DNA of 64,000 bases, taken from assembly GCA_945861665.1 (NCBI GenBank), contig CAMAVS010000001.1:62001-126000 (forward strand), read 5' to 3'. The position numbers and the translations under genes are program-made. Each line of letters begins with the position of its first letter. The stretch's first letter is position 1. The DNA comes from Chitinophaga pinensis (GTDB lineage: Bacteria > Bacteroidota > Bacteroidia > UBA4408). Under the pieces are notes generated by a model. That model searched no databases. It saw nothing but the letters and a program-made list of their open reading frames with translations, and was not told where the DNA came from. This document shows positions 3,875-56,386 of the stretch, piece by piece.

Positions 3875-4369
3875 ATGAAAAAACTATTTTTAATTGCTTG
3901 CGCTTTGTTTGTTAACTCGCTTGTTGTAAAGGGGCAAACACCATCGTCTACTACGATTACTCCAGCACCCGCTACTATAACCGCGACCAATCCAAATGCG
4001 CCAGAGATAACTTTTGATAAGGACATTCACGATTTTGGAACCATAGAAAATGGAGGTGATGGCACCTATGAATTTAGGTTTAAAAATACAGGGAAGGAAC
4101 CTTTAATTATTAGCAGCGCAAAAGCTTCTTGTGGATGTACTGTTCCTACTTGGCCAAAAGAACCAATACTAGTTGGGAAATTGTCAACAATAAAAGTAAT
4201 GTACGACACCAAAAGAACCGGAAGTTTCACAAAACAAGTTACTATTACTTCCAATGCAAAGACTGCAAATAAAATAATTACCATAAAAGGTGTGGTTAAA
4301 GCCGCCCCAGTTGAAGAAACCTTTCCGGCAAAAAAAACGAACCCCGGATCACCTTTTGAAAATAAATAA
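3875..4369 (+). CDS. secreted DUF1573 protein, copy 1
   Basis: 164 residues with a signal peptide ending at about residue 21 (VKGQ) and one DUF1573 domain (about 45-145), an immunoglobulin-like fold common in Bacteroidota. The family's hallmark sequence FKNTGKEPL...SCGCTVPTWPKEPI is present, with two Cys in CGC. The function of the family is unknown; it is thought to act at the cell surface or in the periplasm. It lies 41 bp before a second DUF1573 gene on the same strand, and the two share identical core motifs, which points to a local duplication. The start is the ATG giving a good signal peptide. Confidence 0.9.
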   Translation: MKKLFLIACALFVNSLVVKGQTPSSTTITPAPATITATNPNAPEITFDKDIHDFGTIENGGDGTYEFRFKNTGKEPLIISSAKASCGCTVPTWPKEPILVGKLSTIKVMYDTKRTGSFTKQVTITSNAKTANKIITIKGVVKAAPVEETFPAKKTNPGSPFENK

Positions 4370-6534: not shown

Positions 6535-7941
6535 TTATGATGGAAATATTTTATTGGGGTTTAGTATATTATTAGGGTCAAATACTTTTTTAATCCCCTT
6601 TTGAAGTTCTATTGTTTTCTTGGAAAATACTATATCAACATATTCCTTTTGAACCCAACCGATTCCGTGTTCCCCAGAAATGGTGCCACCCAATTTTTTG
6701 CATAATTGAAATATTTCTCTTATACCTTTCTGAATTTCATTTTCCCAAAAATATTGACTAAGTTCTCCTTTAATTATGTTTATATGTAGATTACCATCTC
6801 CTGCGTGGCCATAGCAAACAGATTTAAAACCATACTTCTCGCCAATTTGCTTAACGCCTACTATTAATTTTGGAAGCTCTGCTCGAGGCACCACTGTATC
6901 TTCTTCTTTGTAAACAGAATTAGCCCTGACTGCTTCAGCTACTTTTCTTCGAAGTTTCCACAAGTTTTCTTTTTGCTCCGTTGTCTCTGCAAACAATATT
7001 TCATCACAATCAAAAACTTGCATAACTTCTGAAATTTTCTCGCAATCTTTAAACAATGCATCTAAATCATTTCCATCCACTTCAACAAGTAAATGTGCTT
7101 GAATATCAGCTGCTACAAGTATGTTTATTCCTTCATTAAATTTTAAACTCCAATCAATTGCGTCACGTTCCATAAACTCCATAGCTGAGGGTATTATACC
7201 TTGTCGAAAAACTGCAGATACGGATTCACAGGCACTTTCGTAAGATTTAAAAGGAACCAACATTAACAAATTAAACTTTGGATAAGGAATCAGTTTGAAC
7301 ACAATTTTTGTTATTACTCCCAAAGTACCTTCACTTCCCACCATTAACTGCGTTAGGTTATATCCTGTCGAATTTTTCAACACGTTTGCTCCTGTCCATA
7401 TTATTTCACCGGTTGGGAGTACCACTTCTAAGTTAAGTACATACTCTTTTGTTACACCATACTTCACTGCTTTTGGTCCGCCAGAGGACATTGCTAAATT
7501 ACCACCCAAAAAACAACTTCCTTTACTTGCCGGATCGGGAGGATAAAACAAGCCTTTTTCTTTCACTGCTTCTTGGAAAAACTCATTGATAACGCCAGGT
7601 TCAACAGTAGCTTGCAAATTTCGTTCGTCAATTTCAATGATTGAATTAAAGCGCTCCATAGAAAGAATAATCCCTTTACAAACTGGCAATGCAGCACCAC
7701 TAAGCCCGGTACCAGCCCCCCTAGGTGTTATAGCGATTTTGTGTTCGTTACAAATTTTAAGTATTTCAGATATTTCAACCGGTAGTCTCGGTTTTATAAC
7801 CACTTCAGGAAAAAAATTCAAGTCCTCTGTTTCATCGTGCGAACACCTTTCAAGTGATTCATTATCAAGTAAAACGAAACGATCGCCAACAATTTCTTTC
7901 AATCGAAAAATTATTTCAGAACTTATTGCTGTATATGACAT
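6535..7941 (-). CDS. FAD-linked oxidase, GlcD/D-lactate dehydrogenase type
   Basis: 468-residue flavoprotein of the VAO/PCMH family, likely oxidising a 2-hydroxy acid such as glycolate or D-lactate. The N-terminal FAD-binding domain shows ITPRGAGTGLSGAALP (about 71-86), the typical GlcD FAD loop. The C-terminal domain has GHAGDGNLH (about 377) and SGEHGIG (about 427), the family's substrate/metal-site motifs. No iron-sulfur subunit (GlcF) is adjacent and no fused ferredoxin domain is seen, so the electron acceptor is unknown. The length matches stand-alone GlcD. It is transcribed divergently from the YdcF gene, with 56 bp between. Confidence 0.92.
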   Translation of the reverse strand: MSYTAISSEIIFRLKEIVGDRFVLLDNESLERCSHDETEDLNFFPEVVIKPRLPVEISEILKICNEHKIAITPRGAGTGLSGAALPVCKGIILSMERFNSIIEIDERNLQATVEPGVINEFFQEAVKEKGLFYPPDPASKGSCFLGGNLAMSSGGPKAVKYGVTKEYVLNLEVVLPTGEIIWTGANVLKNSTGYNLTQLMVGSEGTLGVITKIVFKLIPYPKFNLLMLVPFKSYESACESVSAVFRQGIIPSAMEFMERDAIDWSLKFNEGINILVAADIQAHLLVEVDGNDLDALFKDCEKISEVMQVFDCDEILFAETTEQKENLWKLRRKVAEAVRANSVYKEEDTVVPRAELPKLIVGVKQIGEKYGFKSVCYGHAGDGNLHINIIKGELSQYFWENEIQKGIREIFQLCKKLGGTISGEHGIGWVQKEYVDIVFSKKTIELQKGIKKVFDPNNILNPNKIFPS

Positions 7942-7951
7942 TGTCTAAAAT

Positions 7952-7981
7952 TTTGTTTCAAAAATACTTATTGTACTTTTG
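7952..7981 (+). promoter_or_regulatory. Bacteroidota-type promoter for the YdcF gene
   Basis: TTTG (7952-7955), an 18-nt spacer and TACTTTTG (7974-7981) match the TTTG/TAnnTTTG consensus well. The start codon at 7998 is only 16 nt after the -7 box, so the leader should be very short. Confidence 0.7.
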
Positions 7982-50974: not shown

Positions 50975-51066
50975 CATATATTTTGAATTGTATACCTAAA
51001 CACCTGATTTAAAGTATAATAAAATGATTTTAAGAAGCCTGTGTTTTTTATACCTTCGGTGTATCA

Positions 51067-51208
51067 GGGCCGAACGTTTAGAAAATGTACGGTGTACATT
51101 TTTAGTGAAGGAGCCAGCTTGCGGGAAAGCACGATACACCAACCAATAATTTAGTATATTTGGAATAAACTTCGGTGTATCGTAGTTTTACATTCATAAA
51201 AACCAGAA
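51067..51208 (+). repeat. structured repeat, copy A (left arm of an inverted pair)
   Basis: 142 bp that recurs in inverted orientation at 52175-52309 with clear sequence identity along most of its length. It contains a hairpin AAATGTAC-GGT-GTACATTT and a longer-range pair ACGATACACC...GGTGTATCGT (51131-51140 with 51174-51183). A remnant CTTCGGTGTATC of a further unit precedes it (51054-51065). Confidence 0.75.
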
Positions 51209-51300
51209 TTTGTATGTATAGAAGTGTTAGGGCCCTGGGTTCAGATCCGAGATAATAATTAATTAATAATTACTAATGATGACATGGATTGCGAGGCACA

Positions 51301-51348
51301 TTTGCTTTTGCCTCTCTCCCACAAGCCGACAAAAAAGGCAAAAACAAA
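51301..51348. other. long hairpin inside the cassette leader
   Basis: TTTGCTTTTGCC (51301-51312) and GGCAAAAACAAA (51337-51348) pair over 11 of 12 positions with a 24-nt loop. The whole 250 bp between repeat A and the remnant gene holds no open frame of note. Confidence 0.4.
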
Positions 51349-51460
51349 AGAGCCAAATCTCCCGCGCTCCATTATCATTCAATTTATAATTGATACATTT
51401 GGTATACATTTAAATCTCGATTCTACTCCGTTGACAGAATGAGATCGATCACAGGAACAT

Positions 51461-52042
51461 ATGAGAAAAATTAAAATCCAAACCGTATTTTTAATATGCG
51501 GGATCTTCCTTTTCTCCTGCTCTCAAAAAAAAGAGCAGGAACGACCAAACACTTTTGCACCAAAGGTGATTGAAACAAAAGGTTATGTTGTACCGTCTTT
51601 AAAACAATCAAGCAAAGATGAATCTACGAGAGACGGAATGGACATTGCTATTTGCTCCGTAGACACAAAAAACCGTATTGTAAAATATGCTGGTGCAAAC
51701 CGACCTGTGTGGATTATTCGTAACGGGCAGATCGAGGTGGAAGAAATAAAAGCAACTAAAACCGCCATTGGCGGTTTGACACAGGACGACCACTATTTTG
51801 AATCTCACGAAATAAAATTACAGCAAGGCGACACTTTTTATATTTGCACAGACGGTTACGCAGACCAGTTTAGTGGGAAGGATGGAAAAAAATTAATGAC
51901 CAGAAAACTAAAAGAGATCTTGGTTGGTATTCAAAACAAATCAATGCAAGAACAAGAGCAATACTTAGACAACTTTGTGGAAGACTGGAAAGCAGGAACA
52001 GAGCAAGTTGACGACATTTTAGTAATTGGAATCAGAGTTTAA
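51461..52042 (+). pseudogene. internally deleted SpoIIE/PP2C-type phosphatase remnant with lipoprotein leader
   Basis: 193 codons form one frame that reads like two gene ends joined. Residues 1-48 are a lipoprotein signal and linker (IFLFSCSQKKEQ; KVIETKGYVVP). From about residue 58 it is the C-terminal half of a SpoIIE-type serine phosphatase (GMDIAICSVDTKNRIVKYAGANRPVWIIRNG; FYICTDGYADQFSGKDGKK; VDDILVIGIRV). The N-terminal half of the catalytic domain, with the first metal-binding Asp motif (D-x-TGHG), is missing, as are the TPR/PAS and membrane parts usual for these proteins. Catalysis is therefore unlikely, though the frame is open and could be expressed; an AGGA lies 5 nt before the ATG. 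Confidence 0.7.
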
Positions 52043-52130
52043 AAATAGCCAACGCATTTACTCATAAATTGTTAATTTTTATTGGTATTCGTGAGTGCTT
52101 CGCAATTGCAAGCACATTTAAAAGCCGCGC

Positions 52131-52157
52131 CTCAGGGTTATGAATCCTGAGTTTTTT
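52131..52157 (+). terminator. terminator after the phosphatase remnant
   Basis: CTCAGG (52131-52136) pairs with CCTGAG (52146-52151) around a 9-nt loop, followed by TTTTTT. It lies 88 bp after the stop and inside the repeat-bounded segment. Confidence 0.65.
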
Positions 52158-52174
52158 CCATATACTATTCATCT

Positions 52175-52309
52175 TTCTGCTTTTTATGAATGTAAATCTA
52201 CGATGTACCGAAGTATAAAGCAAATTAGAAATTCTAGTACATCGTGCTTGCCCGCAAGCTGGCCCCTTCACTAAAAAAGCATACTATGCTTTTTCTTTAC
52301 GTTCGGTCC
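52175..52309 (-). repeat. structured repeat, copy B (right arm of the inverted pair)
   Basis: 135 bp, the inverted counterpart of 51067-51208. Read on the reverse strand it keeps GACCGAACGT, TTTTTAGTGAAGG, CCAGCTTGCGGG, CTTCGGT and TTACATTCATAAAAA. Both its hairpins have changed in sequence but still pair: AAAAGCATA/TATGCTTTT and ACGATGTAC/GTACATCGT. Confidence 0.75.
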
Positions 52310-52378
52310 TCCGCAAGCCGGCTCCTGCACTAAAAATATACACCGTACATTTTCTTAACGCACGGTCCTCCGCAACAC
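52310..52378 (-). repeat. structured repeat, partial tandem copy C
   Basis: A third, shorter unit in direct tandem with copy B, about 59 bp out of phase (GCAAGCTGG at 52254, GCAAGCCGG at 52313). Its hairpin core TGTACGGTGTA matches copy A more closely than copy B. The remaining 57 bp to the tatA stop show nothing further. Confidence 0.65.
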
Positions 52379-52799: not shown

Positions 52800-55700
52800 T
52801 TATTTTTTAGGAAGCTCTTCTTCCTTTTTGTCAAAGTCGATTACAATTGGAGTTGCAATACATATTGATGAATAAGTACCGATAACGATACCGATTAACA
52901 ATGCGAAAGAGAATCCACGAATAACCTCACCACCGAATATAAAGATGGCAAGTAATACAAAGAATATCGTTAAGGATGTATTGATAGTACGACTCAAAGT
53001 ACTGTTCAATGCATAATTAATAATGCTGTTTCTTTCTTTGCCTTCCAAATCCTTTTTGTTGTTAGAAGTTAAATATTCCCTGATTCTATCGAACACAACC
53101 ACCGTATCGGTCATTGAGTAACCCATTACAGTTAATATAGCCGCAATAAAGTGTTGGTCAATTTCCAGGGAGAATGGTAACAAACCATTGAAGATGGCAT
53201 AAAACGATAGTACTATAAGCACATCATGGAAAAGAGCCGCAACGGCACCCAATCCATATTGCCACTTACGGAAACGAATAAAGATGTAAATAAACATCAA
53301 CAAACAAGAAAACAAAATAGACCAAACAGCTGATACTTTAATATCATCAGAGATATTCTCCCCTACTTTTTGAGAACTCATAATCTCATGTTTTCCAAAT
53401 GCATCTAATCCTTCGTTCAGTTTGCTTTCTACTAACCCATCTACCTCAGCAGTATTGTCCTCAATTAAATAGGAAGTAGTAATCTTTAACTGGTTATCAT
53501 CACCAAACGTTTTAACTTCAGGAGCGTTTCCAAAAGACTTCGCCAATGCTTCACGCACCGGAGCTGTTTCCATATCTTTATCGAAACGCACTACGTAGGT
53601 TCTGCCTCCTTTAAAATCTACACCAAAGTTCAATCCCTTTTGAGAATACGCTATAATACCCGCTAAAATAATCACAGCAGAAAATATGTAATACATTTTT
53701 CGTTTGCCAACAAAGTCAATGTTCACATTCTTAAATGCATTTGCAGTGAGTGGTGTAGAGAAGGTAACATCTTTGTTCTTTTCCAACAATGAATCGAAAA
53801 TTAAACGCGAAATAAAAATTGCCGAAAACAAAGATGTTAAAATACCAATGATTAAAGTAGTTGCAAAACCTTGAATTGGACCATTACCAAAAGAATACAA
53901 TATAATACCCAATAACAAAGTCGTTACATTCGAGTCAATGATAGACGACATTGCATTCGAAAAACCATCTTTAACAGCTTGTTTCACTGAATTTCCGGCA
54001 GTTAACTCTTCCCGTATACGTTCAAATATTAAGATATTTGCATCAACGGATAATCCTATTGTTAGCACTATACCAGCAATACCCGGCAATGTTAATACAG
54101 CACCCAATGAGGCTAGTACCCCCATTATAAAAAATACGTTTGCGAACAAAGCGATATCGGCAACCCAACCAGCTTTGCTGTAATAGAAACCCATAAACAA
54201 TAAAACAACTATTAGTGCAATTACAAACGATAGAAAACCTGCATTGATTGCTTCTTTTCCTAAAGATGGTCCAACGATTGCTTCTTCCACAATACGTGCA
54301 GGAGCAGGAAGCTTACCTGCTTTTAAAATATTCGCTAAATCTTTCGCCTCCGAAATATCAAAATTGCCAGTAATAGATGAACGTCCACCACTAATTTCTG
54401 CATTTACAGTTGGGAATGAATACACGTTATTGTCCAATACGATGGCAATACTTTTACCGATGTTATCCGCTGTTAAACGTTTCCAGGTTTGAGCACCTTC
54501 GGCATTCATTGCCATCGATACTTCCGCTTGGGATGAATTTTGTGAATAATCACCGCTTGCATCGGTAATCACATTTCCTTCTAAAGGAGCTCTTCCATCA
54601 CGACTAGTAACTTTAATAGCGACTAGTTGTAAAAACTTTTCGTCTTTATCAAAAGCCTTAACAGTCCATAAAGTGCGTAAATTACGAGGCAACAATGCCC
54701 TTACTTGAGGAATGCTAAGCATTGCATTAATTTTTGCAGTATCCTTTATTGCTGCAGTTCCAATTACAGGACCTTCAGCAGGAAAATATCCGCCTTTCTC
54801 ATCTTGACGAACAGATAACTGCATAATATCGCGCAAAGGAGTTTTTGTATCCTTCTTCAACGAATCGCTTTTAGCAATTTTCCTGTTTTTATTATCACCC
54901 AATTTACCTACTAAGTAAGCAGCTTCATTTGCAGTATCTGTTTTTGATTTTGCAGCAACCAAGGCAGTATCTTTTACTTCTGTTTTAGCAGTTAAAGAAT
55001 CCTCTTTAACGGATAATGAATCGGACAGAGCAGCACTTGAATCAACATCGTCTTTTTTACCTGTATATAAGTCACCCAATTTAGTATCGGCATCAATTAA
55101 TTTTTGAACAATTTCAGCATTCTCGTATGTTTCCCAGAATTCTAAATTAGCAGTTCCTTGCAATAATTTACGAACACGTTGTTTGTCTTTTACACCCGGT
55201 AACTCTACCAATATTCGGCCCGAAACATCCAATTTTTGAATATTTGGTTGTGTTACACCAAATTTATCGATACGGGTACGTAGAATATTAAATGAACGAT
55301 CGATTGCATCGTTCGCTTCTTTACGAATCACTTCAATTACCTGCTCGTTAGTTGATTGATAATTGATTTTATCTTTTAACTCAAGAGTATTAAACACAGC
55401 AGCCAATTTTGCATTGGGGTCAACTGCTTTAAAAGACTCTGCAAATAAAGTAACAAAATCTTTTTGACTGTTTTTTTGACTGGCAACCGCCTTGCTTATG
55501 GCACGGTTAAAAGTACTGTCGGTACTGTAATTTGACATAGAACGGATAAGGTCTACAACCGATACCTCCAGGGTAACATTCATACCACCACGTAAGTCCA
55601 AGCCTAAGTTAATTTCCTTTTCCTTACATTCTTTGTAAGTATAGTTTTTAACCAATACGTTAAATACCGGAACCGTACCCAAGGAATCCAAGTAGCGTTT

Positions 55701-55969: not shown

Positions 55970-56386
55970 ATTATTGTATTTGACAACCAATCAGATACAG
56001 ATTTTAGCGATTTGACATTAAGAAAGAAATTTTAGGGGATACGAGTATTGCTGTGTTTTCGTAAAACAATTGAACTAACACTCGATAATTGGTGATTTTA
56101 TGGGATTCTTTTAAACAATTCGCCTAAGTAACCTGATAGACAGATGGATAATTGGATAAAAAAAATCATAACATTACAAGTAAAAGTATTGTTTTTTTGA
56201 AAAAACATTGTATTATTGAAAATAGATTACAAAAAACAATTAACAGGTTCTCTAATTTTTATTCAAATTTTGATATTTCTTAAAAAAACATTTTAGAAAA
56301 TTAAAAAAGTGGAGTCCAGAATCCACGTTAAAAAACGGGGCGTAATTCGAAAAGCCTTATGAGTAGAAAAAAAAATCAAAAAAATC
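55970..56386. other. 417-bp AT-rich intergenic region
   Basis: No open frame of note, RNA gene or mobile element was seen. It holds low-complexity A/T tracts, a GATAGACAGATGGATAATTGGAT-like stretch at about 56137-56158 and a weak hairpin GTGGA/TCCAC (56309-56313 with 56322-56326) without a U-run. Confidence 0.5.

Follow-up and report, generated by a model that had tools for sequence, protein, structure and literature searches.

We found that a segment of the window, a stretch of 64,000 nucleotides from contig C1 (positions 62001–126000) of a 2.49 Mb Chitinophaga pinensis genome (G000) that its relatives and gene content would place in the class Bacteroidia, is a decayed relic of a gene cassette. 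It probably belongs to a family of Bacteroidia gene cassettes which have inverted copies of a repeat, here called M2, at their ends and which would be moved in trans by a DDE enzyme. The cassette anatomy recurs across families, and the gene for the enzyme, with its catalytic triad intact, co-occurs with M2. The original prediction, made from the window alone, was of an undescribed type of cassette that is or once was mobile, and this is borne out by further copies, by covariation, by cassettes with intact genes elsewhere and by one empty site in a relative. The cassette type is apparently undescribed; no description of the repeat or of tRNA-ended cassettes was found in the mainly open-access literature searched.

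Structure of the cassette relic

The inverted arms and the tandem unit that had been predicted to flank the element are present as 70 nt at 51066–51135 and 52241–52310 (83% complementary), 51 nt at 51158–51208 and 52175–52225 (84%) and 59 nt at 51066–51124 and 52311–52369 (88%), and the tandem unit indeed repeats the outer 59 nt in tandem (D1, 76%). The arms had been read as one repeat of about 140 bp; their likeness was confirmed, but alignment with a second copy of the structure in the genome revealed that both long arms are made up of two separate repeats, M1 and M2, which are found apart from each other in other genomes. This one further copy lies at C5:29305–29941 and its right arm is partial.

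On the left lies the outer copy of the M1 unit, a 59-nt covarying hairpin on the forward strand (51066–51124), which is followed on the same strand by the left cassette end, an M2 made up of a palindrome and a CATTCATAAAAACCAGAA tail (51169–51208; R2, 54.9 bits; alignment A4). An L-type leader, which matches that of the C5 copy, then runs from M2 to a tRNA piece (51209–51229, forward strand). The piece itself is a degenerate 3′ part of tRNA-Lys(UUU) at 51230–51255 on the forward strand, of which 51230–51242 is an exact match to the host (13/13 nt). On the right, all on the reverse strand, are a tRNA-CAU anticodon-arm piece at 52130–52149, identical over 20/20 nt to the host gene at C1:151185–151258, the inverted M2 of the right cassette end at 52175–52214 (R2, 57.4 bits) and a tandem pair of M1 units, the inner at 52252–52310 and the outer, which is the tandem unit of the original prediction, at 52311–52369. 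That prediction had overlooked the tRNA pieces which adjoin the two arms on their inner side.

The cargo relic is an ORF of 193 aa on the forward strand (51461–52042; Pfam SpoIIE, 48.7 bits), directed away from the L end, in which a lipoprotein signal is joined in frame to the C-terminal part of SpoIIE. It had been taken for a chimeric gene remnant, and it is a remnant but not a chimera: it represents one gene with an in-frame internal deletion, the paralogue of which on C3 encodes 1258 aa. DNA identity to C3 is 83% for positions 51345–51595 (C3:295311–295563) and 88% for positions 51596–52059 (C3:291652–292115). We regard the window copy as decayed because there is no adjoining recombinase, the left tRNA piece is degenerate and the cargo is deleted. 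The left neighbour of the element is not syntenic within the family.

Two other repeated sequences were seen in this part of the window. A 69-bp repeat on the forward strand (GCGAGGCACATTTGCTTTTGCC..., 51295–51363), independent of M1 and M2, occurs at 73–82% in many Bacteroidia relatives, and a 60-bp segment (AGCCAACGCATTTACTCATAAATTGTTAATTTTT..., 52054–52113) occurs at 81–84% in the relatives G001, G005 and G007. The only over-threshold Rfam match in the window was to the DUF805 RNA (RF03081), at 56304–56373 (79.5 bits).

The M2 repeat and its cassettes

M2 is 40 nt long and consists of a palindrome, which has covarying variants, and a tail (CTTCGGTACACCGAAG-TTTT-GCATTCAGAAAAAGCGGA). Compensatory changes, on both sides of the stem, were found at 4 of its 6 pairs, and the stem often, but not always, ends in CGTAG. 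Using a search model built from 14 copies, with a cut-off of E <= 1e−8 and with matches above ~1e−4 taken as noise, we found M2 in 19 of 395 genomes of the class, usually in multiple copies per genome.

An exact 22-nt core gave no match in GTDB contigs or IMG/VR; the core is too variable for this, and a covariance model was needed. A plain DNA search of 60 relatives returned chance matches only, which were rejected on inspection, and the 21 matches to the M2 tail in IMG/VR, none of which had the palindrome, were judged to be chance or coding sequence. The left arm had no blastn match in phages and plasmids, and phage and viral collections contained nothing matching the repeats or the recombinase. 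Rfam gave no credible match to M1 or M2, the tmRNA matches in these searches being due to captured tmRNA 3′ pieces.

M2 copies are frequently paired facing inward and enclose whole genes, over distances of up to 11.5 kb. Cargo includes an 805-aa outer-membrane protein in G363, a 997-aa secreted protein in G149 and, in the 11.5-kb cassette of G334, a four-gene operon with a tyrosinase and a GH25 lysozyme. Three cassettes of one, one and three genes lie in tandem in G082, with a palindrome common to neighbours (CTCCGCTTTTTCTGAAACCTGAACTGCGATAGATCGCAGATTGACTTTCAGAAAATGCGGAG), and a fourth cassette in this genome contains a 561-aa gene for an RHS-like protein; PADLOC identified none of the known defence genes in what these G082 cassettes carry. 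At one end of a cassette the leader resembles a Bacteroidota promoter (TATATTT) and may have this function. It should be noted that several cassettes are gene-free relics, which counts against the reading of these structures as mobile cassettes.

The DDE recombinase

The C5 copy of the element adjoins an intact gene for a 444-aa DDE recombinase, the homologue of which in G302 is 78% identical and contains the Pfam domains rve and rve_3. The D236-D300-E339 triad was invariant in 8 of 8 sequences. Homologues were present in 18 of 295 sampled genomes of the class, in 17 of these as a single copy. In nine genomes from several families, including the window genome, the recombinase gene ends 16–95 bp before an M2 which points away from it, although in one of the nine (G217) only a 3′ fragment of the recombinase precedes M2. 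A close recombinase (at least 45% identity) was present in eight genomes, every one of which was among the 14 genomes with M2 in the sample of 295 (P about 2e−12, assuming that this sample is a subset of the 395 genomes scanned for M2). The distant homologues which we examined (30–35% identity) had no M2 within the fetched flanks. A further M2 located 5′ of the recombinase gene, which would make the gene part of an element with two M2 ends, was not found, and this counts against the mobile-cassette reading.

The recombinase locus of G302 has a syntenic counterpart in G363, from which most of the gene has been lost, and the enzyme therefore looks resident rather than recently moved. The recombinase had no match in phages or IMG/VR. 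A distant relative (28.8% identity) is encoded, unannotated, at 53961–55178 of the Leptospira mayottensis plasmid NZ_CP024873.1.

The original prediction had compared the ends to integron attC sites or REP/IS200-type ends and had proposed to look for a tyrosine recombinase or TnpA_REP encoded elsewhere. Neither comparison holds: the sites, in contrast to attC, are in inverted orientation, the second copy adjoins the gene for a DDE recombinase (rve), and the only Y1/HUH transposase sequence found in the genome, at C1:4001–4123 and far from the repeats, is a fragment of 73 aa. Membership of attC or REP was dropped; the system lacks the defining enzyme of integrons, judged by the gene beside the cassettes, and that of REP/RAYT systems.

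Comparison with known mobile systems

In the mechanism that we propose, a cassette lies between two M2 copies which face inward, each a palindrome with a conserved tail, and inside each M2 there is a short leader, then a tRNA or tmRNA 3′ piece and then the cargo. The gene for the recombinase, which belongs to a putative distinct clade of IS3/IS481-like enzymes, lies outside the cassette, immediately upstream of an M2; the enzyme would most likely bind M2 as its substrate and move cassettes in trans, and cassettes may still be moving. The M1 hairpins would be a separate dispersed repeat which settled beside the ends in the lineage of the window.

Mobile insertion cassettes (MICs) are passenger genes which are bounded by inverted repeats, contain no internal transposase and are thought to be moved in trans. 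MICs are treated, for example, in PMC3913671 and PMC5444012. The cassettes found here are like MICs in that passenger genes are bounded by M2 with no transposase inside. They are unlike MICs in having tRNA or tmRNA 3′ pieces at their ends, in that a single palindrome can serve two adjacent cassettes and, apparently, in that the enzyme gene lies beside a cassette and not within an independent IS which has both of these ends.

With integrons the system has in common that the gene cassettes are small, that the sites are palindromic, that tandem arrays occur and that a recombinase gene adjoins a cassette. However, the neighbouring enzyme here is a DDE recombinase (rve/rve_3) rather than a tyrosine recombinase (IntI), M2 faces inward at both ends of a cassette where integrons have one directly oriented attC per cassette, and tRNA pieces are present. 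As in REP/RAYT systems, a single-copy transposase gene adjoins a dispersed palindromic repeat, and M1 is similar to REPs in size and spread, whereas the enzyme is of the DDE and not the HUH/Y1 type of TnpA_REP and pairs of M2 bound genes. M1 also appears to differ from the GTAG and CGTC REPs, for the latter of which no dedicated enzyme has been reported (PMC3733652), in having neither GTAG nor CGTC at the edge of its consensus stem. The recombinase resembles those of IS3 and IS481 in its rve domains, its D-D-E triad and its NCBIfam similarity, but the scores of the G302 enzyme are far under the cut-offs (86.4 bits against 160 for IS3 and 64.6 bits against 224 for IS481), there is nearly always one copy per genome and M2 is found on one side only.

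The simplest reading of these comparisons is that the cassette family would work like MICs, with arrays and an enzyme-beside-cassette layout that are somewhat integron-like. A further-reaching reading, which we put forward tentatively and consider possible rather than probable, is that this is a new integron-like system of the Bacteroidota, in which the resident DDE gene would be the platform, inverted-palindrome cassettes would be stacked, next to this gene and at other places, by recombination at shared palindromes and the captured tRNA 3′ ends would be functional, as a recombination target, a guide or an RNA-processing signal. If the mobile-cassette reading is true, Bacteroidota would carry and stack accessory genes without tyrosine-recombinase integrons, in cassettes which are probably overlooked by current tools such as Rfam, IS profiles and integron finders. 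With the 40-nt M2 signature, a catalogue of the cassettes and of what they carry can already be made.

tRNA and tmRNA pieces

Just inside M2, beyond a leader of ~15–90 nt, part of a tRNA or tmRNA gene is found. In the C5 copy this is tRNA-Lys(UUU) on one side (30/30 nt, reaching the last base), at the place homologous to the degenerate tRNA-Lys piece of the window, and on the opposite side the 3′ end of tmRNA (26/26 nt). That the window site itself might contain a tRNA or tmRNA gene was considered and dropped, as ARAGORN finds none and only 3′ pieces are present. We searched for a strict sense T-loop motif in the 100 nt either side of 57 M2 copies from many genomes and found it after M2 in 22 of the 57 and before M2 in none (background 0.5%; P about 2e−35, which is optimistic because M2 copies within one genome are related). 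Several more M2 copies have degenerate T-arms or anticodon arms when read by eye. A sizeable share of M2 copies have no recognisable tRNA piece, and this too counts against the mobile-cassette reading. Three copies in G149 and G178 have M2, the leader and a tRNA-Glu piece in common, and their homology ends at the tRNA 3′ end. It is unusual for tRNA 3′ ends to occur so regularly at the ends of cassettes, and for the tRNA to vary from copy to copy, and the pieces raise a testable question about the use of tRNA genes by mobile DNA. How the pieces would be gained, and what role they may have, we infer from sequence.

The tRNA pieces are also well accounted for if they are remnants of the attachment sites of tyrosine-recombinase elements, of which M2 would be a conserved arm or adjoining repeat and the M2 pairs would be neighbouring relics, and on balance we consider this unlikely. 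In its favour, the pieces begin at the T-arm or the anticodon arm and mostly reach the tRNA 3′ end, as classical attachment segments do, some of them (in G302 and G254) precede a tRNA-type terminator and one cassette interior contains an apparent serine recombinase C-terminus. Such relics would not be expected to have a DDE recombinase as the partner of M2, or to form inward-facing pairs, in tandem with shared palindromes, which enclose complete genes; matching intact tRNA genes elsewhere in the window genome also argue against this explanation.

Evidence for mobility

For the cassettes moved in trans by a DDE enzyme which we favour, one empty site was found. The flanking genes are 30 bp apart in G402, and the same place in G302, a member of the same genus, contains a 968-bp M2 cassette; in G363 a different cassette, of 2.8 kb, lies next to the same formimidoylglutamase-like gene (named by eye). 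Counting against this, 143 nt of other DNA lie beside the cassette in G302 and the breakpoints relative to G402 are not clean. Five relatives have other inserts at this site, which do not contain M2. Also counting against it, no regular target duplication was detected: direct repeats flanking the outer ends were not significant in 14 of 15 pairs, in a test which is blind to duplications of 3–5 bp. In the remaining pair, at the L209 locus, an M2 cassette is flanked by a 63-bp direct repeat (98%) of the 3′ end of a gene (4246–4308 and 7892–7954). Transposition was not seen, which again counts against the mobile-cassette reading.

Each M2 end might instead be an independent miniature transposon, similar to a MITE and with an IS3/IS481-like end, so that host DNA was trapped between insertions. 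We regard this as quite unlikely, even though the M1-M2 arms of the window resemble a pair of separate copies in inverted orientation, M2 occurs singly in G221, G313 and G304 and the recombinase is flanked by M2 on one side only. Independent insertions do not readily account for the two different leader types, L and R, of which there was one each in every cassette that we examined, for the genes of intact cassettes being mostly directed from the tRNA-bearing end or for the same host gene adjoining different cargo in two species with none in one relative.

The M1 repeat

M1 is a 59-nt hairpin unit (consensus GGGCCGAGCGTTAAGAAAATGTCCAGTGGACATTTTTAGCGAAGGAGCC) which is scattered through the Bacteroidia. 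The paired stem changes noted in the original prediction are real: among 24 distinct homologous units, both partners had changed in 10 of the 13 stem pairs, 95.8% of cells were paired, compared to 36–49% in slid controls, and this covariation was reached by 0 of 500 shuffles. The predicted conservation of the fold therefore stands, but its assignment to the cassette end does not, as M1 lies outside the true ends (M2) and is a dispersed REP-like repeat separate from the cassette. M1 was rejected as a cassette end, many genomes carrying M1 without M2. A covariance model of the arms matched 22 of 395 genomes of the class, often by the M1 part alone, and an exact-core search identified 18 named M1 loci, nearly all in Bacteroidota, with hosts including Flavobacterium, Lutibacter, Sinomicrobium, Galbibacter, Croceivirga and Lutimonas.

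It is very improbable that M1 and M2 are hairpins of a transcript in a structured RNA or regulatory element, with the tRNA piece serving to process the cargo mRNA, for while covariation is strong in both repeats, leaders contain the promoter-like TATATTT and the tRNA piece of a G082 cassette is ~20–25 nt ahead of the start codon, single-stranded or cruciform DNA sites would be expected to covary likewise, M2 is upstream of the promoter-like box and M1 occurs in varied contexts.

Some M1 copies were found at tRNA ends. At L091 (1366–1698) three tandem copies lie behind a tRNA-Phe gene in repeat units of 140 bp, each M1 being accompanied by a duplicate of the 3′ end and terminator of the tRNA. 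In two species M1 directly follows an apparent thiamine (THI) riboswitch, read by eye (L088, position 1501; L107, position 6862). At three loci (L086, 1590–1648; L109, 1667–1725; L102, 1501–1559) M1 lies between direct duplications of host DNA of 71–109 bp, an unusual length for target duplications, and at L086 the duplicated sequence is the 3′ end of a gene. A Flavo-1 RNA (RF01705) was found at L113 (224–309), ~300 bp from an M1 copy and on the opposite strand.
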